From Chitinispirillaceae bacterium (GTDB taxonomy: Bacteria > Fibrobacterota > Chitinivibrionia > Chitinivibrionales > Chitinispirillaceae): a stretch of DNA of 64,000 nt. The notes beneath the pieces were generated by a model. The model saw only the letters and a program-made list of their open reading frames with translations, was not told the origin of the DNA and did no database searches. Numbering within the stretch: position 1 is the stretch's first letter; every line of letters begins with the position of its first letter. The stretch lies in assembly GCA_016930275.1 (NCBI GenBank), contig JAFGHA010000238.1:1-64000 (forward strand), written 5' to 3'. Below are positions 9,847 to 56,058 of this stretch, piece by piece. The translations under genes were made by a program, and so were the position numbers.

Positions 9847-10620
9847 ATGAAACCTAAAAAACATCTGGGTCAGCATTTCCTCACCGCTCCAGCATATGCC
9901 CGGAGGATTGCCGAATCGGTACCTGCGGAGGCCAGTGATAACGTTCTGGAAATAGGGCCGGGGCAGGGTGCATTGAGTATATTTTTATATGAACGTTTTC
10001 CGTCTTTTCACCTTGTGGAGATTGATTCGGCGGCAATTGAAGCCGTTCAAAAAAAACTCTGCATCGGCGGTTATACGCTTCATCATGCGGACATTCTGAA
10101 ATTTGATTTCGCACGGGCGGGTTTTCCGTTGCATGTCGTCGGGAATCTGCCGTATGTGATAGGTGCTCATATCATCAGGAAAACACTCTGCTACGGCAAC
10201 CGTATTCTCTCGTGCACGTTTATGGTACAGCGTGAAGTGGCTGAACGCATCGTTGCCGGTCCGCACACGAAACGTAACGGTTTTCTGTCGGTATTCTGCT
10301 CGTTTTTCGGAACCCCGCGTCTGCTGTTTCATGTGCCGCCCGGTGCTTTTTTCCCTCGTCCGAATGTCGATTCATCGGTATTCCGGATCGTCATCGAAAA
10401 AGAAATTGAAAGTAAACTGCCTCGTGAACGGTGGGAACCGTTTTTTGAACTGGTAAGCAGAGGTTTCCGGCAGCGCCGGAAAAAACTGGTGAATGCACTT
10501 GCCGCCGACGGAGCGGAAAAGGAGACTGTTCGAGTGGCGCTCTCGTCGATACATGCGGAAGATGTCCGTGCCGAAGATCTGGATGCCGCTGCCTGGCTGG
10601 AGCTGTACCGGCGTCTATGA
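9847..10620 (+). CDS. rsmA: 16S rRNA (adenine1518-N6/adenine1519-N6)-dimethyltransferase
   Basis: MKPKKHLGQHFL, NVLEIGPGQGALS, VVGNLPYVIGAHIIRK, VPPGAFFPRPNVDSSV. Confidence 0.95.
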   Translation: MKPKKHLGQHFLTAPAYARRIAESVPAEASDNVLEIGPGQGALSIFLYERFPSFHLVEIDSAAIEAVQKKLCIGGYTLHHADILKFDFARAGFPLHVVGNLPYVIGAHIIRKTLCYGNRILSCTFMVQREVAERIVAGPHTKRNGFLSVFCSFFGTPRLLFHVPPGAFFPRPNVDSSVFRIVIEKEIESKLPRERWEPFFELVSRGFRQRRKKLVNALAADGAEKETVRVALSSIHAEDVRAEDLDAAAWLELYRRL

Positions 10621-12731
10621 TTCCGCTTCGTCCGATACTGTTTCTTTACTCAATGATACAGAATGTCTCACTTCTGTTGCGGGGTAAACCTGCATGCTCT
10701 CCTTCAGGTGAAATTTCCGGAAGCAGGGCTGCTGCCGCTTGTCTTCCGGCGGTAGTCATTATGCTGGCGGCGATTACGGGATATGCACAGACGAATTTGT
10801 GGCCCGGAGATTTGAATGTTCCCGAGGCCGAGGAGAATGCTGAGACAGGAGACAATGCGGGTTCATCAGTTTCGCTTTTGAGTACCACTTCGATGTACCA
10901 GACTTTCAAAACACGCAATCGTCTTGACTGGCAGCGCCGGTTCAAAGAGGGAACCCTGACGCAGATTGCCGATTACGGTCTCGAACAGGTAAGTTCCCGC
11001 AGCAGTATTCAGTATACTGACTTTACGGGAATGCTGATTTATAGTGATGTGCTGACAAGTGGACTGGACGCAGGGATAGACTGGTCTCCAGTACTGTCCT
11101 ACCGAAAATTTCCTTCGGGGGGAATACTGGAATCGAATGCGGATATCGGTCCGGTGGTGAAGCACACCCTTTTTTCGGTACCCTATACGGTTCGTGGCGG
11201 TTTATACGGGTACGGGTGGAGTGATACCGTTCAATCGCTTCGTGCGGTATCGCAGGGAGTTCTTCACGGGAATCCCGGAGTATATGGATCCGTTTCAGTA
11301 GGCAATCCCCGTTCGACAATAAATGATATTCCATTATACGTCGGAATAAACGCTGACGGCCGTTCGCTCGATGGCAGTAATCTGGGGCTTATGACCGCAT
11401 CGGCACGCCACTGCCGGGTTCTGCCGCATTTGGGCGATTCACTGTTTTTTCACATGGGTGATTCACTGACGAATGGTAAGGAACTTTACCTGGGTGAATA
11501 TGAGGGGAAATCGTTTTACAGCAATACATCATGGCGAATCAACCACTCGTTTTCCGGTGCGGCCGGTGTGAAGATGGTACAGCGGTTCGGTATCGCTCCA
11601 CGGTTGTATTACCGTTACTATTTGAATTCCATTGCTTACCCCGAAAACGCTGCATCGCTTGATGATCAGATGAGAACGGGCAATCAATTCGGGGTTATGG
11701 CGACAACCGATTCTCTTCGCAGACTGTCGTATAGTGGCGGTATTGTGTTCGGACGTGAGTTTGAAAACTGGTTATTCAGACGCGATTTCTCGACAGGCAC
11801 CGCTCTTTCAGCCGCCGACAGCATGGCAATGATAATCAATCAGAGTGATCACCACTCAACTCTGGTGCGAACGGGAAACAGGGTGAAAATAGCGCTTCCC
11901 TGGGGAATGAGTGCCACCTATCATCTTAATGCATCAAAGGATTCCAAGCAATACGATAAAACACTCGACGGAAAATTCAACCGCAACGAATTCGACCGCG
12001 TTCAGATAAATAACGCACTGTCATTGCGATATGAACGGGATACGCTTAATTTTTTTGAGCTGTATGGACAGTACGGAAAAATATATCACTATTATTTCAG
12101 CGAAAAACAGAGCGCCGAGAGCAAAATGATAAATGAGTATCGCCTCGGGATTGACATGGGGCTTTCCGCCGGACCGTTTACAATAAGAGAAAATATCTAT
12201 AGTGACGCCGAAGTTTCGGAAATGCGCTATGCGGTCAATCTGCCGCCCTACGCCCGGGACGTAAATTCCACGTTGTCCGGAAAGATGATACTCATGGAAA
12301 ACCGTCTGCAGATAACCGGGAAATGGGTTGAAATGTATCATGACGACGGTTACTGGTACGGGAGAGATTACTGGACCGATACCCCGAGTGTTGACCATGA
12401 ATTTTACGCAATTGAACAGAAGAATACTCAATACTGGCTTGACTTCGCATTGGAATCACTATGGGAGCGGGGAAAATTGACGGTAGGCACCCTGCTGCAT
12501 GATGTATTTCAGCGTCATTGGAAACGGGACCAGAATACGGGTGAAGCGGAATATGTCGTAAGTGAGCTTGATATGGGATACAATATTGAACCCTATTGTA
12601 CCTTTAAATGGCAGTCGTCGCGGTTTCTGCTTTCAACGCGACTCAGAAGGATTATCAGAACCCGCGATGAATACCGCTTCAGTCTCGACAAAAACTGGGA
12701 TTTCCTGCTTTCACTCCAGATGGTATTTTAG
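10617..12731 (+). CDS. Large hypothetical outer-membrane beta-barrel protein
   Basis: ATGA overlap with rsmA; long beta-rich sequence with many aromatic residues, C-terminal RFSLDKNWDFLLSLQMVF. Confidence 0.55.
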   Translation: MIPLRPILFLYSMIQNVSLLLRGKPACSPSGEISGSRAAAACLPAVVIMLAAITGYAQTNLWPGDLNVPEAEENAETGDNAGSSVSLLSTTSMYQTFKTRNRLDWQRRFKEGTLTQIADYGLEQVSSRSSIQYTDFTGMLIYSDVLTSGLDAGIDWSPVLSYRKFPSGGILESNADIGPVVKHTLFSVPYTVRGGLYGYGWSDTVQSLRAVSQGVLHGNPGVYGSVSVGNPRSTINDIPLYVGINADGRSLDGSNLGLMTASARHCRVLPHLGDSLFFHMGDSLTNGKELYLGEYEGKSFYSNTSWRINHSFSGAAGVKMVQRFGIAPRLYYRYYLNSIAYPENAASLDDQMRTGNQFGVMATTDSLRRLSYSGGIVFGREFENWLFRRDFSTGTALSAADSMAMIINQSDHHSTLVRTGNRVKIALPWGMSATYHLNASKDSKQYDKTLDGKFNRNEFDRVQINNALSLRYERDTLNFFELYGQYGKIYHYYFSEKQSAESKMINEYRLGIDMGLSAGPFTIRENIYSDAEVSEMRYAVNLPPYARDVNSTLSGKMILMENRLQITGKWVEMYHDDGYWYGRDYWTDTPSVDHEFYAIEQKNTQYWLDFALESLWERGKLTVGTLLHDVFQRHWKRDQNTGEAEYVVSELDMGYNIEPYCTFKWQSSRFLLSTRLRRIIRTRDEYRFSLDKNWDFLLSLQMVF

Positions 12732-42605: not shown

Positions 42606-43538
42606 ATGTATAAAAAACGATGGGGTTTTGTCATCGTTACCGCGCAATCGATGTCGCGGGTCAGACAGGTATATATTTCCGGCATTATCCTTTTTATCCT
42701 CGGTATTGTTTCCTGTATCGGAGTAGTCGGTATGGCCCGACTGGTCTGGTTTTCCGGTTCCTATGCTCATGCCAAATTCGGGGTATATGAAGCGCGCCGT
42801 GAAAATAAGGGACTCATGATGAAAATCAGATTCCTCAACAGATTCATCGCCAAAGAAACCGATAAAATCAATCAACTGGTCGCTTTTGAAGATAAAATCC
42901 GTCTGCAGTATGGAATGGACCGAATCAGTAACGAGGTTCGGCGCGCGGGTGTGGGAGGTCGTCCTTCCCGTGAGGATTTGATGCTCACGAATCTGCTCGA
43001 CCCGGTACTGATGCGTGCGGAAGCGGTACGGGAGAGTCTGGAGGTTTTAATACGAAAAGCGGACCTTCAGGATTCGACACTAACCCGCGTAACTTATAAT
43101 GTTGCAAAAATCCATAAAAAATGGTCACAGCGTCCATCTACATGGCCCACTCAGGGAAGAATCACTTCCTATTTCGGGTATCGTTTCCATCCTATTGCCG
43201 GGCACACGCTTTTTCACGACGGACTTGATATCGCCAATAAAGTCTGGACACCAATCTACTCAACTGCCGATGGAATTGTACATTTTGCCGGTAACAAGGA
43301 TTATTACGGACGGATGGTTGCAATAAACCACCAGGCAAGTGACTGCCAGACGATCTACGGGCATTTGCATCAGACTGCCGTTGTTGCGGGACAGGTGGTC
43401 AAGCGGGGAGATCTGATAGGTTATATGGGCAATACCGGGAGAAGTACCGGACCGCACCTTCACTACGAAGTACGTATCAGCAAAAAGCCCGTAAATCCGC
43501 TCAGCTACATACTTCCTACCGATGCAATTATCGATTAA
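42606..43538 (+). CDS. M23-family metallopeptidase, membrane anchored
   Basis: TM near N-terminus; ITSYFGYRFHPIAGHTLFHDGLDIAN, GNTGRSTGPHLHYEVR. Confidence 0.95.
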   Translation: MYKKRWGFVIVTAQSMSRVRQVYISGIILFILGIVSCIGVVGMARLVWFSGSYAHAKFGVYEARRENKGLMMKIRFLNRFIAKETDKINQLVAFEDKIRLQYGMDRISNEVRRAGVGGRPSREDLMLTNLLDPVLMRAEAVRESLEVLIRKADLQDSTLTRVTYNVAKIHKKWSQRPSTWPTQGRITSYFGYRFHPIAGHTLFHDGLDIANKVWTPIYSTADGIVHFAGNKDYYGRMVAINHQASDCQTIYGHLHQTAVVAGQVVKRGDLIGYMGNTGRSTGPHLHYEVRISKKPVNPLSYILPTDAIID

Positions 43539-45147: not shown

Positions 45148-45408
45148 TCAGAGGTGTTTGAATTTTTCGCGTTCACCGTAGAGCTGCACGATACGTACCG
45201 ATAGACGGTCGTCAACGACCGTTACTTCACCTTTCGCCATCAATTTTTTACTGATGAAAACATCCACCGCTTCACCCGCCATGCGGTTGAGACGGACAAT
45301 ACCGCCCTTTTTCAGATTGAGCAGTTCACGAATGGTCATTCTGGTCTGTCCGAGCTGGACTCCGATGGGAACATTGACATCCAGAAGCATGTTGATATTG
45401 TTTGCCAT
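45148..45408 (-). CDS. FliN/SpoA-domain protein (flagellar motor switch-like)
   Basis: LLDVNVPIGVQLGQTRMTIRELLNLKKGGIVRLNRMAGEAVDVFISKKLMAKGEVTVVDDRLSVRIV. Confidence 0.9.
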   Translation of the reverse strand: MANNINMLLDVNVPIGVQLGQTRMTIRELLNLKKGGIVRLNRMAGEAVDVFISKKLMAKGEVTVVDDRLSVRIVQLYGEREKFKHL

Positions 45409-45974: not shown

Positions 45975-46445
45975 ATGGAAAACGTTCATATACGACCTCT
46001 GATCGATACCGATTTCGATGGATGTATGGATCTATACCGGTATCTTCATGCAGAGGACGATCCGCCCCCTCCGCCCGAAACACTCCATGCTGTCTGGAAT
46101 GCATTGATCAGTGATCCACAGACGATCTGTCTTGGCGCCTTTACGGGCGAACGGATGGTCGCGGTGTGCAATGCCCAAGTAGTCCGGAATCTGACCCGTG
46201 CTGCACGGCCCTACGCGGTGGTCGAGAATGTGGTGACCCATCCCGATTTTCGTCGTCGAGGTATCGGCAGGGATTTGCTAATGGAACTGATCAGTAGATG
46301 TGACCAGTTTGATTGCTATAAAATCATGCTCATGTCTGCCAGCAGACGGACTGAGGCACATGCATTCTACCGGTCAATCGGATTTGACGACTCGGCAAAA
46401 AGGGCATTTGTCCTGTCACGACGCGATCTGTTGCGGGCACAGTAA
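45975..46445 (+). CDS. GNAT-family N-acetyltransferase
   Basis: YAVVENVVTHPDFRRRGIGRDLLMELISRC; RRTEAHAFYRSIGFD. Confidence 0.9.
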   Translation: MENVHIRPLIDTDFDGCMDLYRYLHAEDDPPPPPETLHAVWNALISDPQTICLGAFTGERMVAVCNAQVVRNLTRAARPYAVVENVVTHPDFRRRGIGRDLLMELISRCDQFDCYKIMLMSASRRTEAHAFYRSIGFDDSAKRAFVLSRRDLLRAQ

Positions 46446-46470: not shown

Positions 46471-47832
46471 TCAAGTATCGCCACGGTGTACTACAAGTTT
46501 TTTTGGCAGCACTTCACACCTCACAAGATCCTCAATGTTCTCTGCCCGTCTGATGCACTCGACAGTTCCGTCTTCCATGACCATGACTACTGCCGGGCGG
46601 TAGGTGATGAACTGCATCCACTGGGTGACATTGTAGGCGCCGACCGGGTGCAACACCAGCCGGCTGTTGACCGGCAGCGACGGCAGGTAGACCGATTCCG
46701 CCACGACATCGATATTCATGCACAGCGGTCCATACAGGATGCACGGCTCCGGCGGTGAAACCAGGGCTTTCTCCGGACGGATATCGAGCGTGTACCAGTT
46801 GGTTGTCGGCAGGATATTGATTCCCGCATCAATGAAATATGCCTTGCTTCCGTCGGGTAACTGTTTGTTCGCCGTAATGGTAGTGACGAGATACCCTGCT
46901 TCGTCGACCAGTGCCCTTCCGGTTTCGAGATAGAGTTTCGGGAACTGTTTCGGACGGAGGTGGTGAAGGAGTTTCGTGCAGATGGCGTCTGCATACTCCT
47001 CCACCGGAGGAACCGCGACATCCGGCGGCTGGTAGATTCCTTTCAGACGGTTTCTTGAAGGAAATCCGCCACCGAGGTCAAGATATTCAATGGTGAAATC
47101 GAAGTTGTCTTCGATTTCATGCATGAATGCCACCATTTTTTCGACGGCATTTGCATATCCGGAAGGATCGAGAATGAACGTCCCTATATGGGTATGCAAC
47201 CCGTTGAGCCGGAGCCATTTGCTCATTGCCAGCCGGTTGACGGCCTCCATTGCCTGATGATTATCGAGATTGAAACCGAATTTGAACCATTGCGGATAGA
47301 TCCCGGTGTCCATGTTGAGCCTGATACCGACGGCCACCTGTTTGCCGAGCCGTTCGGCGGTTTTCTCGGCGAGCAGCAGTTCGCTGAAGTTGTCGATATT
47401 GACCATTGCACCATCGGTAAATGCCCGGGTGAGGTCGTCGGCAGTTTTAAAGGGTCCGTTAAAAATGATGTGATTGCCGGGAATACCGAGTCGCACGGCT
47501 TTTTCGTATTCGAACCCTGAAACGACTTCGGCGATTTCACCTTCCTGGTGGAGGACTGCACAGACAGCATCGAGATAGTTGGTCTTGTACGACCATGCAA
47601 AACGGACGTTGGGATACCGTGTGGAAAAAGATCGGTGGAGTTGCCGGTAACGGTTCCGCAGGTCGCGTTCGCTGAACACGAACAGCGGACTGCCAAACTG
47701 TCTGACCATGGCATCCACGGCAACGCCGTCGATATCCTCTCGTGAATTGCGATAGTACGAATTGCCGAATTTGTTCATGGTTCCCACGATCTGCTTTATG
47801 AGCGTAGGTTTCTCGTACGGTTCCTTTACCAT
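46471..47832 (-). CDS. Fold-III PLP-dependent decarboxylase (Orn/DAP/Arg decarboxylase 2 family), divergent
   Basis: PLP lysine context FAWSYKTNYL; GLHTHIGTFI; YLDLGGGFPSRNRL; LETGRALVDEAGYL; GPLCMNIDVVAESVYLP; VGAYNVTQWMQFI. Start at internal ATG (MVKEPYEK). Confidence 0.88.
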   Translation of the reverse strand: MVKEPYEKPTLIKQIVGTMNKFGNSYYRNSREDIDGVAVDAMVRQFGSPLFVFSERDLRNRYRQLHRSFSTRYPNVRFAWSYKTNYLDAVCAVLHQEGEIAEVVSGFEYEKAVRLGIPGNHIIFNGPFKTADDLTRAFTDGAMVNIDNFSELLLAEKTAERLGKQVAVGIRLNMDTGIYPQWFKFGFNLDNHQAMEAVNRLAMSKWLRLNGLHTHIGTFILDPSGYANAVEKMVAFMHEIEDNFDFTIEYLDLGGGFPSRNRLKGIYQPPDVAVPPVEEYADAICTKLLHHLRPKQFPKLYLETGRALVDEAGYLVTTITANKQLPDGSKAYFIDAGINILPTTNWYTLDIRPEKALVSPPEPCILYGPLCMNIDVVAESVYLPSLPVNSRLVLHPVGAYNVTQWMQFITYRPAVVMVMEDGTVECIRRAENIEDLVRCEVLPKKLVVHRGDT

Positions 47833-47898
47833 ATCTGGCTCCTTTTGGCATACCCCTGCTCCGGTGACCCGGATTGTTCGGTTTATTGTTTGCAAAGT

Positions 47899-49008
47899 TT
47901 AGTTGGAAGTGATTGGTACGGTTTCCCGGTAGTGACTGACACCATGCTCGCGCTTGCCGTGCTTCCCGCCTGCCAGTTCGGCCGAGGTCGTGATGGCGGC
48001 AAGCCTGCCGATATCCAGCACAAGTTCATCGGTGTACCGCATGAGAATTTTTCCCGCCTCGTAATCGGAATGCGTTTCATACGGCTCCCCGAGTACCGCC
48101 TGAACGAGTCGCAACGGCAGGTTGATGCCGCAGCCGGTCGCCATGAAAACCCAGGCGGGGAATCGGGGATTGATTTCGATGAGGTAATAGATACCGGTTT
48201 TATGTTCGCGGATGAGTTCCAGTTCGTAGCCTCCGCGCCAGTTGAGTGCGCCGACGAATGTTTCGGCGATCGCGAAGATCTCACCGTTGGAAATGCTGAC
48301 GTTGGTCCAGATCTTGCCGAGCCTGGTGATCAACATTTTTTTGATGGCGCAATGCCCCATGTCGCCCCCGGAACCGTCGCCCAGACCGATGCAGTTGTAT
48401 TCCTCTCCGGAAATGAATTTCTGGGCAATGATCGGCAGCCCCCATTTGGCGGCATAATGATGAAACTCCGCCAGCGCCTGGGCCCTGGTGGTGACCACGG
48501 TAGCCTCGTAAAAGGGACCCTTGATGAGCAGGGGAAAACCGAGCTGCGCAATGGCGCCGTCGATTTCCGCACCGGAGGTGAGCACGAACGTTGGTGGGGT
48601 GAAAAGACCTGTTTTGTGCGCCAGATCGTCGAGCCGGTCCTTCCCCCGAGCCCTGAATGCGGCCATCGATGGCAGGAACGTCCGTATTCCCATTTCCGCA
48701 AGCTGCGATTCAATTGTTATATACAGCGGCAACTCGGCGTCGAGCGCCGGGATGATGACATCGACCTGTTCCCGTTCATGGATATACCGGATGCGCTCCA
48801 GATAAGAGGAGGGATCGATCGACGGGTAGGGAAGAATGTACGATTTGTCAATAATCCAGTCCATGTAGATGCCGGGTTCCATCGTATCGTAGGCAAGGCC
48901 GATAATCCGGACGTCAAGGCCTGACTCCCTGAGGCTTCGGGCGATTCCGGTTCCCGGCCCGGGGTTGTCGGTGGCATTGATACCGCTCACTGCAATGGTG
49001 TAACGCAT
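47899..49008 (-). CDS. ATP-grasp enzyme (CarB-like), unknown substrate
   Basis: MRYTIAVSGINATDNPGPGTGIARSL; FPLLIKGPFYEATVV; PIIAQKFISGEEYNCIG; GYELELIREHKTGIYYLIEINPRFPAWVFMATGCGINLPLRLVQAVLGE. Confidence 0.85.
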   Translation of the reverse strand: MRYTIAVSGINATDNPGPGTGIARSLRESGLDVRIIGLAYDTMEPGIYMDWIIDKSYILPYPSIDPSSYLERIRYIHEREQVDVIIPALDAELPLYITIESQLAEMGIRTFLPSMAAFRARGKDRLDDLAHKTGLFTPPTFVLTSGAEIDGAIAQLGFPLLIKGPFYEATVVTTRAQALAEFHHYAAKWGLPIIAQKFISGEEYNCIGLGDGSGGDMGHCAIKKMLITRLGKIWTNVSISNGEIFAIAETFVGALNWRGGYELELIREHKTGIYYLIEINPRFPAWVFMATGCGINLPLRLVQAVLGEPYETHSDYEAGKILMRYTDELVLDIGRLAAITTSAELAGGKHGKREHGVSHYRETVPITSN

Positions 49009-49039
49009 GGGTGCTCCTCTGATAGTTCGTTGTCGATCA

Positions 49040-49282
49040 TCAGACCAGTGAATAGTTCTGCAGTGTATCGACCATTTGAAGTATGTCCTGTTCACACGTC
49101 TCGGGGTGCACCTCGAAACGTTCGATCATTCCGGTGGTGATCATGCTGACGGAATCACCCTCTTTTAACCGTGAAATAATGAACTGCCCGGTTTTGTTGG
49201 TGGTATAGCTGTGGCCGCTGTACGGGTCGAAAATGAATCCGCTTTCAGAAATCGCCAGGGTTCGCAGACGGTTGGTGTCCAT
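49040..49282 (-). CDS. PqqD-like protein (RRE-type winged-helix fold, predicted)
   Basis: 80 aa; pattern FDPYSGHSYTTNKTGQFIISRLKEGDSVSMITTGMIERFEVHPETCEQDILQMVDTLQNYSLV matches the PqqD-family layout (N-T-G, L-x-E-G, F-x-V-x-P, D-I-x-x-M-V/L). Confidence 0.7.
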   Translation of the reverse strand: MDTNRLRTLAISESGFIFDPYSGHSYTTNKTGQFIISRLKEGDSVSMITTGMIERFEVHPETCEQDILQMVDTLQNYSLV

Positions 49283-49319
49283 AAAGTCTCCTTTGACAAT
49301 GTTCGTCGGTTGTGGGGCG

Positions 49320-49985
49320 TTATTTGCTGCGTTTCTTCGTTCGCTTTGAACCGCCCGTGCATAACGGCAGATAGCGGTTCGCCGTTTTATTTTCAGGATC
49401 CAGAATGATGCAGCTGAGGAACAGCTCCCGGGCCTCGTCGAATTTTTTCACGGTAAAGAGCGTTTCCCCGAGGGTGACGAGAAACGTCACCGAAGTGGGC
49501 AGTACCGCGAGCATTTTCCTGCTCACTTCTTCGGAAAGCCGGTATTTCCCGTTGAACATCAGTGAACGGGCGTACCAGTAGTTCGCGATGGTGTTGTAGT
49601 AATCGATTTTAACTGCCTTGAGTGCCTCTTTTTCAACGCTCGGCCAGTCGCGCTGCGCCGCGAAGACAATGGTTATGCTGTTGATGATCTCGAGCGAGGA
49701 AGGATAGATCAGTTGTGCCTTTCGGTAGCAGGCGAGCGCATCGGTGAAACTGCTGTCGCAGTAGGAAAGCCAGCCGCAGCGGTAATTGACCGTGTACCCC
49801 GATGGGTACGCCGTCAGGACCGGACTGAGCGCGCGCAGCGCTCCTGCGTAATCATGCTTCCTTTCACAGGCATAGGAATCGTAATATGCCTGCTTGATCT
49901 GTTCATGCTGCAGCGGCTGCGACGGCGCTGCAAAGGAACAGGGCAGTAACAAAAACGGCAGACAATACGGCAGTATGTTACGCAT
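49320..49985 (-). CDS. Secreted TPR protein
   Basis: MRNILPYCLPFLLLPCSFAAPS signal peptide then TPR units; ATGCGTAA overlap of its start with the stop of the UT-M23 gene. Confidence 0.75.
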   Translation of the reverse strand: MRNILPYCLPFLLLPCSFAAPSQPLQHEQIKQAYYDSYACERKHDYAGALRALSPVLTAYPSGYTVNYRCGWLSYCDSSFTDALACYRKAQLIYPSSLEIINSITIVFAAQRDWPSVEKEALKAVKIDYYNTIANYWYARSLMFNGKYRLSEEVSRKMLAVLPTSVTFLVTLGETLFTVKKFDEARELFLSCIILDPENKTANRYLPLCTGGSKRTKKRSK

Positions 49986-52230
49986 GAGGCGCATTTTCCT
50001 TTTCCGGTTCACTGATGAGGGTGACCACCATGGATCCCGGTTTGGCGTGAGGCCGGTGACCGGTACGATGTTCACTTCGGGACGACGCATCGGCGTCGTG
50101 AACGGCAGCGGCAGGTACCACCGGTTCGTATTTCGACGCCCGGACCTTTTCACGCCGGAGTTCATGATGCTCATTCCCGGATGTCACCGTCACGCAAAAG
50201 ATTCCTTTCATCTCGTCGAATTCGGCGGTTGTCGTCATGAATCCGGTTCCGGTCAGTGACCGTACGGTTATCGTACCGTTAATACGGGTTTCATCGCTCA
50301 GGCGGTAGGTACCGGCGGCATTGAATGCCCGGTGGTTGAATGATTTCAGGAAGGTGTACAGCGTGCCGTGCCGGTCTATGAGTGCGGCGTTGACCGAGTC
50401 GGTCCAGATGATGTTTTCACTGCAGAGGGGAAGTGATGGAAGCGCCAGGAAAAAGAGGCGCAGCGGTGAGGTGCGACTCCCCTCGAAACGGTAAAACCTG
50501 AATACGCCGTCGAAATTCGAGAAAAACAGCCGGCTGTTTGTTGTACGATCAAGAAAATGATAGCTTCCGTCGGACGACATGGCAATCGTGCATTCGAACG
50601 ATCGCCTGACGGTGTTTTTCCGACAATACCGGTAGGAGTAGACGAACGTGTCGTCGAGCATCAGCTGCAGGCGTCGTTCAAGAAACCGTGACGGCGAGGC
50701 GGGCCGGACACGTTGCCCCCGATGGAAGGGGTGCGGCGTGAGCAGGTATTCGCTGTCGATGACTGCCGATGAAAAGAAAAACGGTACTGCGGGTGCTCCT
50801 GCATACGCGGCATACTGGCACTGAAAGTGGACGTGCGGTTGCGGTGAATATCCTGAATTGCCGCAGAGCGCCACCCTGGTGCCGACGGAAACCTGATCGT
50901 TGACATTAACGCATACCGACCCGCGCATGCAGTGAGACAGTTCCACATAGTACCCGAACGGACTGTGGATGATCACGTAGTTGCCCCAGTTATTCACCTG
51001 GTCAACAGTGCCGGGAGGGTTATCGGCGCAGTCATTGCACAGTGCAACCACCGTTCCCGAAACCGGTGCGAAAAGCGGTTTGCCGTAACAGTAATAGTCG
51101 TCAAGGGAGTTACCGTCGTTGATGAACGTCGTGCCGTTACGGTCTTCGATGACGAAATCGATTGCATCGATCCAGTTGCCTTTGTGGGTCCACGAGTCAT
51201 CGAACGACTGGTAGACCGCCCAGGTACCCAGAAAGGGCAGACGGGGTTGCGGTACCGAATGACTGAAACGGGCGGAGTAGTTGCAATGGTGTTCGAGATC
51301 CTGCTCGGGCGTTTCGAGAAAAGCGTGATTGAGCAGCGGACTCCGGTTGATGCGCAGTGAATAAAGGATGGTAAGGGTGACGACCGTAAACGGGAGTGTG
51401 AACACCGGAATGTGGTGTGTTGACCAGAATTCTGCACCGGCATCGACGATGATGACGGAGATCAGGACATTGATAAGTGCGATTACGTAGCTCCGTGGCG
51501 ACGGAATGAGGAAATACCCGCCCAGGGCGACGGCAATGAGAATGAAATTGAACGAGAAGGTAGTGGTAAATGCACTGTAATAGGAACCCTTCAGCAGCCA
51601 CAGGAACAGGGTACCGCAGTAGTAGCCGGCCGCCACAAGAAACAGCATGATTCGCGAGTGCCAGGCGATGACGGCGAGTATGCAGAGGCCAACCACGTCG
51701 CAGGGCAGAAACACGAGTATCCCGAGATTTTTAAGCAGGCCGGAAAACCAGAGCGGTAATCCCGGAATGGTGAGCAGGGACAACGGGTGTACCGTATTGA
51801 TCGGCAGATTGGAGTACGAGACCGATGCCAGAAAGAGCAGCGTTGCGATAATGGTGAACGGCAGGTTGAGTACCGGAAGATGCAGGAAGTGGTGAAAGAA
51901 CACTGACATCGCGTACCCGATGAATACGGTAAAGCTCGATGCGACCAGCGTGAGCAGTACTGAAAGTGGCGATAACGAATACATATAGCCGATACAGAGA
52001 CCGACCAGCAGGGAGTTGTAGGTATAGAAACCGCTGACCATCTGACGGCGCGAGAGTCCGATGAGCTTTCCGCAGTACAGCGCAGTCGTATAGGCGATAA
52101 GTGCATGGCCCCCGATCGACGGATTGCTGCACGCGCACAAGAGCAGCATTATTCCCACCACGCGGTTGCGTATCAGGGCGAGAAACGAGAAGCTTGTTAA
52201 CAGGTTCCCGACATAATTTCCGGTTTTCAT
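49978..52230 (-). CDS. Urea transporter (UT/SLC14-type) domain fused to M23 peptidase domain plus C-terminal extension
   Basis: CSNPSIGGHALIAYTTALYCGKLIGLSRRQMVSGFYTYNSLLVGLCIGY and second-half FSFNFILIAVALGGYFLIPS; then THKGNWIDAIDF, YVELSHC, QPHVHFQ (M23 metal/catalytic residues). Confidence 0.85.
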   Translation of the reverse strand: MKTGNYVGNLLTSFSFLALIRNRVVGIMLLLCACSNPSIGGHALIAYTTALYCGKLIGLSRRQMVSGFYTYNSLLVGLCIGYMYSLSPLSVLLTLVASSFTVFIGYAMSVFFHHFLHLPVLNLPFTIIATLLFLASVSYSNLPINTVHPLSLLTIPGLPLWFSGLLKNLGILVFLPCDVVGLCILAVIAWHSRIMLFLVAAGYYCGTLFLWLLKGSYYSAFTTTFSFNFILIAVALGGYFLIPSPRSYVIALINVLISVIIVDAGAEFWSTHHIPVFTLPFTVVTLTILYSLRINRSPLLNHAFLETPEQDLEHHCNYSARFSHSVPQPRLPFLGTWAVYQSFDDSWTHKGNWIDAIDFVIEDRNGTTFINDGNSLDDYYCYGKPLFAPVSGTVVALCNDCADNPPGTVDQVNNWGNYVIIHSPFGYYVELSHCMRGSVCVNVNDQVSVGTRVALCGNSGYSPQPHVHFQCQYAAYAGAPAVPFFFSSAVIDSEYLLTPHPFHRGQRVRPASPSRFLERRLQLMLDDTFVYSYRYCRKNTVRRSFECTIAMSSDGSYHFLDRTTNSRLFFSNFDGVFRFYRFEGSRTSPLRLFFLALPSLPLCSENIIWTDSVNAALIDRHGTLYTFLKSFNHRAFNAAGTYRLSDETRINGTITVRSLTGTGFMTTTAEFDEMKGIFCVTVTSGNEHHELRREKVRASKYEPVVPAAAVHDADASSRSEHRTGHRPHAKPGSMVVTLISEPEKENAPHA

Positions 52231-52250
52231 CCTGAGCCTTTACGTTTGCA

Positions 52251-52448
52251 CTAGCCGGCATCTGCCTTTTCAAGTTGCCGTTTTTTCTTTACTGGGAACT
52301 GCAGGTATTCCGTCCAGGTTGCTACGGCAGGGTATCGCTGTTCCTGATGTTCTGTAAAGATACGAACACCGGTTCTGAAATGACCTGTTTTTCCCGGCAA
52401 CAGACGGAACCTTTGTTCTCTGCAGCGAACATGTTCCTTTTTATTCAT
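52251..52448 (-). CDS. Candidate small basic protein (65 aa) in leader of the UT-M23 operon
   Basis: MNKKEHVRCREQRFRLLPGKTGHFRTGVRIFTEHQEQRYPAVATWTEYLQFPVKKKRQLEKADAG; stop lies 20 nt before the UT-M23 ATG. No homology recognised and no clear SD. Confidence 0.25.
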   Translation of the reverse strand: MNKKEHVRCREQRFRLLPGKTGHFRTGVRIFTEHQEQRYPAVATWTEYLQFPVKKKRQLEKADAG

Positions 52449-52583
52449 GTTTCGCAGACAGGTGAACCGCTCCAGCCGGTCAGCCGGAAACGGTATACGG
52501 ACATCCGGACGGCGCAATGAAGCGGTTACGTTATTTCGGAGGAGATTCCCGGCCGGGGCACGGCCGTATCTGAACCGGCGAGA

Positions 52584-52594
52584 GGGGGGGGGGG
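52584..52594. repeat. Homopolymeric G11 (plus) / C11 (minus) tract
   Basis: Eleven consecutive G read at cgagaGGGGGGGGGGGtagaaa; intergenic, between the LRR gene stop (52637) and the UT-M23 start (52230). Confidence 0.9.
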
Positions 52595-52636
52595 TAGAAA
52601 ATCGTCTGCAGCTTCGGCACCAGATCACCGAACCGG

Positions 52637-54777: not shown

Positions 54778-56058
54778 ATGGACAATCTGAATACCGGTCG
54801 TGCTGGAAATGACGTCGGTGGCGGAACGGACTTCTTCGGCACCGGCAATCCGTCGGACCTGGCAAAGACCTACGGTACGCCGCTCTATGTCTACAGCGAG
54901 GTGATCCTGCGGCAACGGTGCAGGGAACTCACACGACTGGTAACCTATGGCAAATTCAAGGTGAATTACTCGGCCAAAGCGAATACAAACCTGTCGCTGC
55001 TGCGTATCATCCGCGAAGAGGGGCTTCTGGTTGATGCGATGTCGCCGGGGGAAATTTTCATCGAGCTCAAAGCCGGGTTCAGACCTGAGGAGATCCTGTT
55101 CATTTCCAACAATGTTTCCGCCGAGGAGATGCGATACGCGGTAAAGACCGGGGTGACGGTGAGCGTGGACTCCGTTTCACAACTGGAGCAATTCGGAAAG
55201 ATGTTTCGTGGTAGTAAGGTTGCTATCCGCATCAATCCGGGAGTAGGTGCCGGACATCATGAGAAGGTGATCACCGGTGGAAAGAACACGAAATTCGGTG
55301 TTGATCCGGTCTATCTGGATGAGGTGCAGCGGACCCTGTCGCAGTACAATCTGCATCTTGCAGGGATCAACCAGCATATCGGATCACTTTTTATGACCCC
55401 GGAAACCTATCTGGAGGCTGCGGGATTGCTTCTCGATATCGCCGACCACTTCCCGGACCTCGATTTTGTCGATTTCGGTGGTGGATTCGGTATCCCGTAT
55501 CATAAGCAGGATGGTGAGGTAAGGCTCGATCTGAAGGATCTGGGAAACCGGTTGCAACGGCTGATCGATGAGCGGATTGTTGCGTCAGGAAAGCATCTTA
55601 CCGTCAAGGTCGAACCGGGACGGTACACGGTTGCCGAGTGCGGAATACTGCTCGGCAGAGTCCATTCCGTCAAGATGAACGGCGGGAAAAAATATATCGG
55701 TACCGATATCGGATTTAATGTTCTCGCCCGTCCGGTACTTTACGATGCGTATCATGAGATCGAAGTGTATGGAGTCGAAAACCGTATCGACAGTAAGAGG
55801 GAACCGGTGACGGTTGTGGGAAATATCTGTGAAACCGGAGACGTCCTTGCCAAAGATCGTATACTGCCCGAGGTGATGGAAGGTGACGTGCTCGGTATAC
55901 TCGACGCAGGAGCCTACGGAATGGTGATGAGTTCCAATTACAACTGTCGTCTGCGGCCGGCGGAGGTGCTGATCAACAGAGAGGGAAAACCGGTGCTCAT
56001 CCGCAGACACGATACGCTTGAGGACCTGGTTCGGCATTTCGATGATTTAGAGAGTTAG
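54778..56058 (+). CDS. lysA: Diaminopimelate decarboxylase
   Basis: VNYSAKANTN, GINQHIGS, VDFGGGFGIPYH, VEPGRYTVAECG, GNICETGDVLAKDR, DAGAYGMVMSSNYN. Confidence 0.93.
   Translation: MDNLNTGRAGNDVGGGTDFFGTGNPSDLAKTYGTPLYVYSEVILRQRCRELTRLVTYGKFKVNYSAKANTNLSLLRIIREEGLLVDAMSPGEIFIELKAGFRPEEILFISNNVSAEEMRYAVKTGVTVSVDSVSQLEQFGKMFRGSKVAIRINPGVGAGHHEKVITGGKNTKFGVDPVYLDEVQRTLSQYNLHLAGINQHIGSLFMTPETYLEAAGLLLDIADHFPDLDFVDFGGGFGIPYHKQDGEVRLDLKDLGNRLQRLIDERIVASGKHLTVKVEPGRYTVAECGILLGRVHSVKMNGGKKYIGTDIGFNVLARPVLYDAYHEIEVYGVENRIDSKREPVTVVGNICETGDVLAKDRILPEVMEGDVLGILDAGAYGMVMSSNYNCRLRPAEVLINREGKPVLIRRHDTLEDLVRHFDDLES

Follow-up and report, generated by a model that had tools for sequence, protein, structure and literature searches.

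What does a peptide-recognition protein bind in an operon that encodes no evident peptide? The question is raised by five closely spaced genes in a 64,000-nucleotide stretch of contig JAFGHA010000238.1 from a Chitinispirillaceae bacterium (assembly GCA_016930275.1; the whole stretch is hereafter the window), which encode a urea transporter (UT)-M23 peptidase fusion, a secreted tetratricopeptide repeat (TPR) protein, a PqqD-type recognition element (RRE) of the kind used by ribosomally synthesised and post-translationally modified peptides (RiPPs), an ATP-grasp ligase and a fold-III pyridoxal phosphate (PLP) decarboxylase. We found that the decarboxylase itself carries a conserved N-terminal tail with the leader motif of lasso peptides, and that the gene set recurs far beyond this genome. 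Both observations are solid, and the leader-like tail on the decarboxylase is what is new here. The genes, re-derived from the window sequence, and the tail are as follows.

52230-49978, minus strand: UT-M23 fusion (Pfam UT and Peptidase_M23)
49985-49320, minus strand: secreted TPR protein, ATG 49985 (ATG 49994 also possible; Pfam TPR_2)
49282-49040, minus strand: PqqD-type RRE (PF05402)
49008-47899, minus strand: ATP-grasp ligase, ATG 49008 (NCBIfam PRK12767 group, PDB 2pn1)
47832-46471, minus strand: fold-III PLP decarboxylase, ATG 47832 (Pfam; nearest to the N-citrylornithine decarboxylase FslC)
47725..47832, minus strand: N-terminal tail of the decarboxylase, aa 1-36, MVKEPYEKPTLIKQIVGTMNKFGNSYYRNSREDIDG, conserved in homologues and predicted disordered
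47800..47817, minus strand: YxxPxL motif YEKPTL, aa 6-11 of the tail, the lasso leader motif

A leader-like tail on the decarboxylase

The first 30 or so residues of the decarboxylase, which follow the pattern YxKPxIxK...GxMNKFG, are near-invariant among homologues and belong to the most conserved parts of the enzyme. All 66 alignment rows that extend to Y6 and P9 have both residues, N20 and K21 are present in 66/67, and YxxPx[LIVMF] is present in 69 of the 70 homologues, the exception (L072) being an open reading frame (ORF) that starts after the motif. LysA paralogues from the same genomes are not matched by the tail model. AlphaFold predicts the decarboxylase barrel with high confidence and the tail without secondary structure (pLDDT 35-51); a segment that is conserved yet unfolded on its own is as expected for a recognition peptide. 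Some Aquificota genomes have the PLP gene away from the PqqD and ATP-grasp genes; there the tail retains its leader part while MNKFG has drifted (ANKMS, SNKLG, ANKVS).

The RRE has the residues with which related proteins bind such motifs. It matches PF05402 with 48.3 bits (cut-off 23.4), and its closest relatives in NCBIfam and the PDB are lasso RREs; against the HPr-rel-A PqqD model TIGR04353 it scores 21.6, below the cut-off of 35, whereas the L086 homologue reaches 37.2. The leader motif bound by lasso-type RREs is YxxP with Leu or Ile two residues on (PMC6784204, PMC10368454), and in LppB D70 hydrogen-bonds the Tyr while N33, 37 residues away, fixes the backbone at the Pro, so that D70A weakens binding and N33A nearly abolishes it (PMC13381572). 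The operon protein has the equivalent Tyr/Pro-binding pair: D66 is invariant (72/72), N29 stands the same 37 residues from it, and in the PDB alignments both coincide with their counterparts in TfuB1 and PbaB1. The hydrophobic residues of the cleft are likewise maintained, with Phe at position 70 in 69/72 (Met in the window), L74 in 71/72 and L79 in 65/72. N29 and D66 are thus the predicted peptide-binding pair and, together with the YxxPx[L/I] tail, imply that a known lock and key are both present, with the key on an enzyme. The preliminary description had called the PqqD-like protein a carrier, a label that RiPP recognition element should replace: the family lacks a conserved Ser, Lys or Cys attachment residue, with no Ser at 95% conservation, and a covalent carrier was accordingly rejected.

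A hidden precursor peptide was also considered and rejected, since a hidden Markov model (HMM) of the tail matched no free-standing peptide among ORFs of at least 20 aa in about 80 loci, nor any in the source genome, its single non-PLP match being a decarboxylase cut by a contig end. No conserved cluster of small ORFs was detected among the ORFs of at least 60 aa in the loci. As regards lasso biosynthesis, neither an Asn-synthetase-like cyclase nor a B2 peptidase is present among the operon proteins, and no precursor with a YxxPxL leader was found, the motif occurring only on the decarboxylase in the loci and the source genome. The tail gives the RRE a likely partner encoded alongside it and speaks against a precursor peptide made from a gene of its own.

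Distribution of the gene set

An alignment-based scan of genome contigs for the ATP-grasp ligase yielded 219 confirmed relatives. The 80 best were retained, their loci were scored with HMMs of six proteins, and 76 of the loci were analysed. The PLP decarboxylase is present in 72/76 loci, PqqD in 71/76, UT-M23 in 64/76 and the TPR protein in 45/76, and contig ends explain part of the missing genes. Four related genomes share the block, arranged as UT-M23, TPR/outer-membrane barrel, TPR, PqqD, ATP-grasp and PLP, although the contig of one genome (G037) stops within it; outside Fibrobacterota-type genomes the genes most often run PqqD, ATP-grasp, PLP, UT-M23, barrel, TPR. The loci span more than 10 phyla, with record titles naming Aquificota, Verrucomicrobia, Lentisphaerae, Planctomycetota, Cyanobacteria, 'Deltaproteobacteria', Gemmatimonadota, Delongbacteria, Cloacimonadota, WOR-3, Calditrichota, Kapabacteria/Ignavibacteria, Thermotogota and Thiomargarita, although some titles of metagenome-assembled genomes (MAGs; Klebsiella, Akkermansia) are probably wrong. 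Typical single-membrane phyla do not appear among the titles of the best 80 of the 219 relatives, which is no proof of their absence.

The genes also occur together when they are not neighbours. Among 61 relatives, the 5 genomes with the ATP-grasp orthologue are also the 5 with the decarboxylase tail. Of 101 genomes from the phylum to which an Aquificota MAG belongs, the same 36 have matches to each of ATP-grasp, PLP and UT-M23, and PqqD is present in those 36 plus one, with the genes on separate contigs or far apart in several of them (e.g. G062-G065, G069, G088, G104); of 195 genomes from a cyanobacterium's phylum, the same 3 have ATP-grasp and PLP. This agreement is inflated by shared ancestry, and the manually chosen thresholds keep a wide margin from paralogues. 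Pairwise divergences of the operon proteins are correlated (Mantel r 0.32-0.90). The one known exception is L055 (Oscillatoriales), in which the ATP-grasp gene at 9962-11041 has no adjoining PqqD and the genome no close PLP relative; its neighbours encode a histidine kinase, a response regulator and a small secreted protein.

This conservation across phyla, with co-occurrence even of unlinked genes, bears out the earlier proposal that the genes form one functional set, and the possibility that they do not co-occur outside the source genome can be set aside. No family model or paper was found to match the five-gene combination, in keeping with the earlier remark that no characterised pathway with this combination is known. 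Searches of open-access literature brought up no published account of the combination, and nothing relevant on a urea transporter with PqqD or M23/ATP-grasp, or on PqqD with ATP-grasp and a decarboxylase. The operon thus represents a gene set that seems not to have been described before and that many unrelated outer-membrane bacteria have in common.

Several loci show further features. A regulator of the MerR plus GyrI-like small-molecule-sensing type lies directly upstream of the operon in L033 (3368-4165) and L035 (1168-1971). Cyanobacterial copies are found near two-component genes, in L082 also with an LTXXQ (Spy/CpxP-like) protein, and G103 has two PqqD copies of the operon family about 2.2 kb apart (C65:19207-21829). 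In L036 (G050 C1, ~262-265 kb), from the same phylum, a distant pair of ATP-grasp and fold-III PLP genes lies in a surface-glycan cluster and has neither PqqD nor UT-M23, so that the enzyme pair recurs in another setting.

Enzymes, envelope proteins and gene neighbourhood

The decarboxylase matches Pfam Orn_Arg_deC_N (117 bits), keeps the PLP lysine K83 and the catalytic C371 in 67/67 sequences and has FslC as its best match in both sequence and fold. Its score against the LysA model TIGR01048 (217) is below the cut-off of 297.9, and a true lysA (54778-56055, scoring 384.5) lies 2.5 kb away, which implies that the operon enzyme is not the housekeeping one. It shares with FslC the motifs C-M-x-x-D and GAYN; the residue after the catalytic Cys is Met in both but Glu in LysA, which suggests a substrate whose far end has no free amine. 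Since N-citrylornithine decarboxylase is the enzyme that it most resembles, the product may be an acylated amine.

Every Pfam match of the ATP-grasp ligase is below cut-off. NCBIfam and PDB matches point to the PRK12767 'carbamoyl-phosphate-synthase-like' group (90 bits; PDB 2pn1) and to a PylC-like N domain; K163, E264, E278, N280 and R282, which include an E-x-N-P-R motif, are kept in at least 95% of 79 sequences, and orthologues are found in many phyla. By analogy with the logic of rhizoferrin and butirosin biosynthesis, a ligase of this type adjoining the decarboxylase suggests amide formation followed by decarboxylation. BtrK, another fold match of the operon decarboxylase, acts on a carrier-bound amino acid that an ATP-grasp enzyme has loaded. 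The idea that the three cytoplasmic genes make or modify an amino-acid- or peptide-derived product thus stands in so far as they look like a small biosynthetic unit, while the identity of the product gains no support.

The UT-M23 fusion scores 172 bits for Pfam UT and 39.5 bits for Peptidase_M23, and its AlphaFold model has a mean pLDDT of 85.8. The UT half has both the PF03253 profile and the fold of urea transporters, Foldseek matching it to the Desulfovibrio vulgaris urea channel 3k3f/3k3g (TM-score 0.80 for 3k3f, target-normalised), although the fusion scores 97 against TIGR03441 (cut-off 275). Foldseek matches the M23 half to LytM/DipM domains. The features of the fusion are as follows.

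Urea channel ~aa 10-292, M23 domain ~330-480, C-terminal all-beta domain ~525-693: domains of the UT-M23 fusion, minus strand
49981..50139, minus strand: C-terminal extension of UT-M23, aa 698-750, specific to the window and absent from three homologues

T348, H349, D358, H433, C456, H466 and H468 of the M23 domain are invariant (55/55), including the HxH motif and H433, yet the first zinc motif is H349-x8-D358 rather than the usual H-x3-D; peptidase activity is thus plausible but unproven. The all-beta domain (aa 525-693, window 50150-50660, minus strand) is confidently predicted and common to homologues, and has no Pfam match. Both termini of mammalian UTs are cytoplasmic, and if the same held here the M23 domain would be cytoplasmic; charge counts along the UT part gave no clear membrane side for it.

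The TPR protein (TPR_2, 35.4 bits) has orthologues at 36-44% identity in four relatives and an N-terminus that resembles a signal peptide by eye. A sixth gene, for an outer-membrane beta-barrel, usually stands between UT-M23 and TPR in relatives: 31 of the 42 products encoded next to UT-M23, which include some unrelated neighbours, have an aromatic C-terminal residue (F, W or Y), a typical mark of outer-membrane barrels, and the cyanobacterial loci L066, L109 and L110 have one porin family in this slot (OprB by Pfam in L109). The barrel gene is missing from the window operon and was not found elsewhere in the source genome (assembly 87% complete), where the search gave partial TPR-type matches only, and the UT-M23/TPR junction contains no detectable remnant of it. 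The window-specific extension of UT-M23 (~53 residues, pLDDT <50, predicted disordered) is located at the barrel slot and is plausibly the scar of a barrel-gene deletion. The UT-M23 and TPR products do look like the envelope proteins they had been taken for; wall remodelling by the M23 domain, suggested at the same time, stays without support. The missing barrel gene and the decarboxylase tail are both absent from the preliminary description.

The gene arrangement recorded earlier agrees with the recomputed coordinates. The TPR start overlaps the UT-M23 stop by 8 bp, gaps of 31 nt and 66 nt precede the ATP-grasp and PLP genes, respectively, an AGGAG ribosome-binding site precedes the PLP ATG at 47832, and a GNAT gene (45975-46445, plus strand) is convergent with the operon. 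On the other side lies a gap in which the putative promoter is presumably situated.

52231-52636, no strand: upstream gap of 406 bp, from the stop of a leucine-rich repeat (LRR) gene to the UT-M23 start

The LRR gene (53767-52637, minus strand), next upstream and co-directional with the operon, encodes a lipoprotein-like product with leucine-rich repeats and a carboxypeptidase-regulatory-like domain. By eye, 42606-43538 (plus strand), outside the operon, resembles an M23 (LytM-type) peptidase gene, and the 86-aa ORF at 45148-45408 (minus strand) a FliN/SpoA-type flagellar switch domain. PADLOC gave no match for anti-phage defence, and plasmid carriage likewise had no match.

Alternative readings and known systems

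In the reading that we favour, the RRE would bind the disordered YxKPx[I/L] tail as lasso-type RREs bind leaders, and this docking would join the decarboxylase with the ATP-grasp ligase. The ligase would make an amide, from which the decarboxylase would strip the alpha-carboxylate, as FslC does with N-citrylornithine, to give an acylated amine. Moving this product across the envelope, or placing it there, would be the task of the UT channel, barrel and TPR protein, and peptide or peptidoglycan bonds would be the target of the M23 domain. We consider binding of the tail by the RRE, predicted from the conserved residues of both, quite probable, and lean towards the account as a whole with slightly less assurance. 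Coupling to the ligase has about an even chance, whereas amide ligation with decarboxylation is a tentative assignment and transport of the product across the envelope an equally tentative one. Several points weigh against this reading. The decarboxylase scores 219.4 against the FslC model NF041039, for which the curated cut-off is 500, and the ATP-grasp assignment stands on matches below cut-off. N29 is Asn in 56/72 RREs and Ser in 16/72. The conserved Gly of the tail lies 11 residues after the Tyr, compared with 9 in the lasso leader TfuA. In addition, the window operon is missing the outer-membrane-barrel gene, and a urea channel would be an odd exporter of a charged amine.

Three other explanations would give the tail a different part. 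It could be a substrate: the RRE would present it, the ATP-grasp ligase would load an amino acid (e.g. at the Lys of MNKFG), and the decarboxylase would act in cis on its own substrate tethered to this carrier arm, with subsequent release through hydrolysis or the M23 domain. Docking alone needs neither N20 nor K21, which are kept nearly as strictly as the leader motif, the tail is predicted to be flexible, and BtrK handles a carrier-bound amino acid loaded by an ATP-grasp enzyme; however, the enzyme family offers no precedent, and L115 reads MREKK for MNKFG while keeping the leader motif, so we regard this possibility as unlikely. The same low probability attaches to the enzyme class with its own leader that it would imply, in which RRE-guided loading of the tail (perhaps at K21) and processing in cis would be followed by release or export through UT-M23, barrel and TPR proteins; if true, RiPP logic would be applied to a catalytic protein, not a peptide product, across many phyla.

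Alternatively, ligase and decarboxylase could act as free enzymes of a polyamine- or siderophore-like pathway following rhizoferrin/butirosin logic, with PqqD and tail making a minor regulatory or stability contact. That FslC is the nearest solved relative, and that the L036 pair manages without PqqD, would fit, but PqqD is retained as strictly as the enzymes, the tail is as conserved as described above and neither an NIS synthetase nor a TonB receptor was noted among the operon genes; this is a shade less likely again. An ordinary RiPP pathway, in which PqqD and ATP-grasp serve an unlinked precursor and the tail is, say, an assembly or dimer contact, accords with the normal role of discrete PqqD proteins, which act for precursor peptides (PMC12710340), and precursors may be unlinked or overlooked as short ORFs. 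The tail HMM and small-ORF searches nevertheless revealed no such peptide, and the motif bound by these RREs is on the tail itself, which makes this explanation the least probable of the three.

The favoured reading, RRE docking on the tail, gives a widespread gene set a testable handle in Y6/P9 of the tail and N29/D66 of PqqD. RREs act as markers in the search for peptide natural products; the one described here appears to work for an enzyme, and RRE genome mining for short precursors only would therefore miss such systems. The function of urea-channel/M23 fusions also becomes testable in this context.

Compared with known systems, both folds of the fusion are recognisable from UTs and LytM/M23 peptidases, from which it differs in being fused, in its extra beta domain, in its altered first zinc motif and in scoring below the TIGR03441 cut-off. 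The butirosin enzymes BtrI-BtrJ-BtrK likewise combine a small protein, an ATP-grasp ligase and a fold-III decarboxylase, although BtrI is an acyl-carrier protein whereas the operon PqqD has no conserved attachment residue. FslC of the rhizoferrin pathway shares the PLP barrel, the catalytic Cys followed by Met and the GAYN motif, but at about 30% identity, with no leader-like tail in the alignment and in a pathway whose NIS synthetase has no counterpart in the operon. The RREs of lasso/LPP systems (TfuB1/FusB1, PbaB1, LppB) are alike in being PqqD-type, in the N/D pair 37 residues apart, in the offsets of the cleft hydrophobics and in having a YxxPx[L/I] partner; the difference is that here a 450-aa enzyme, and not a precursor peptide, bears the motif, at its N-terminus.

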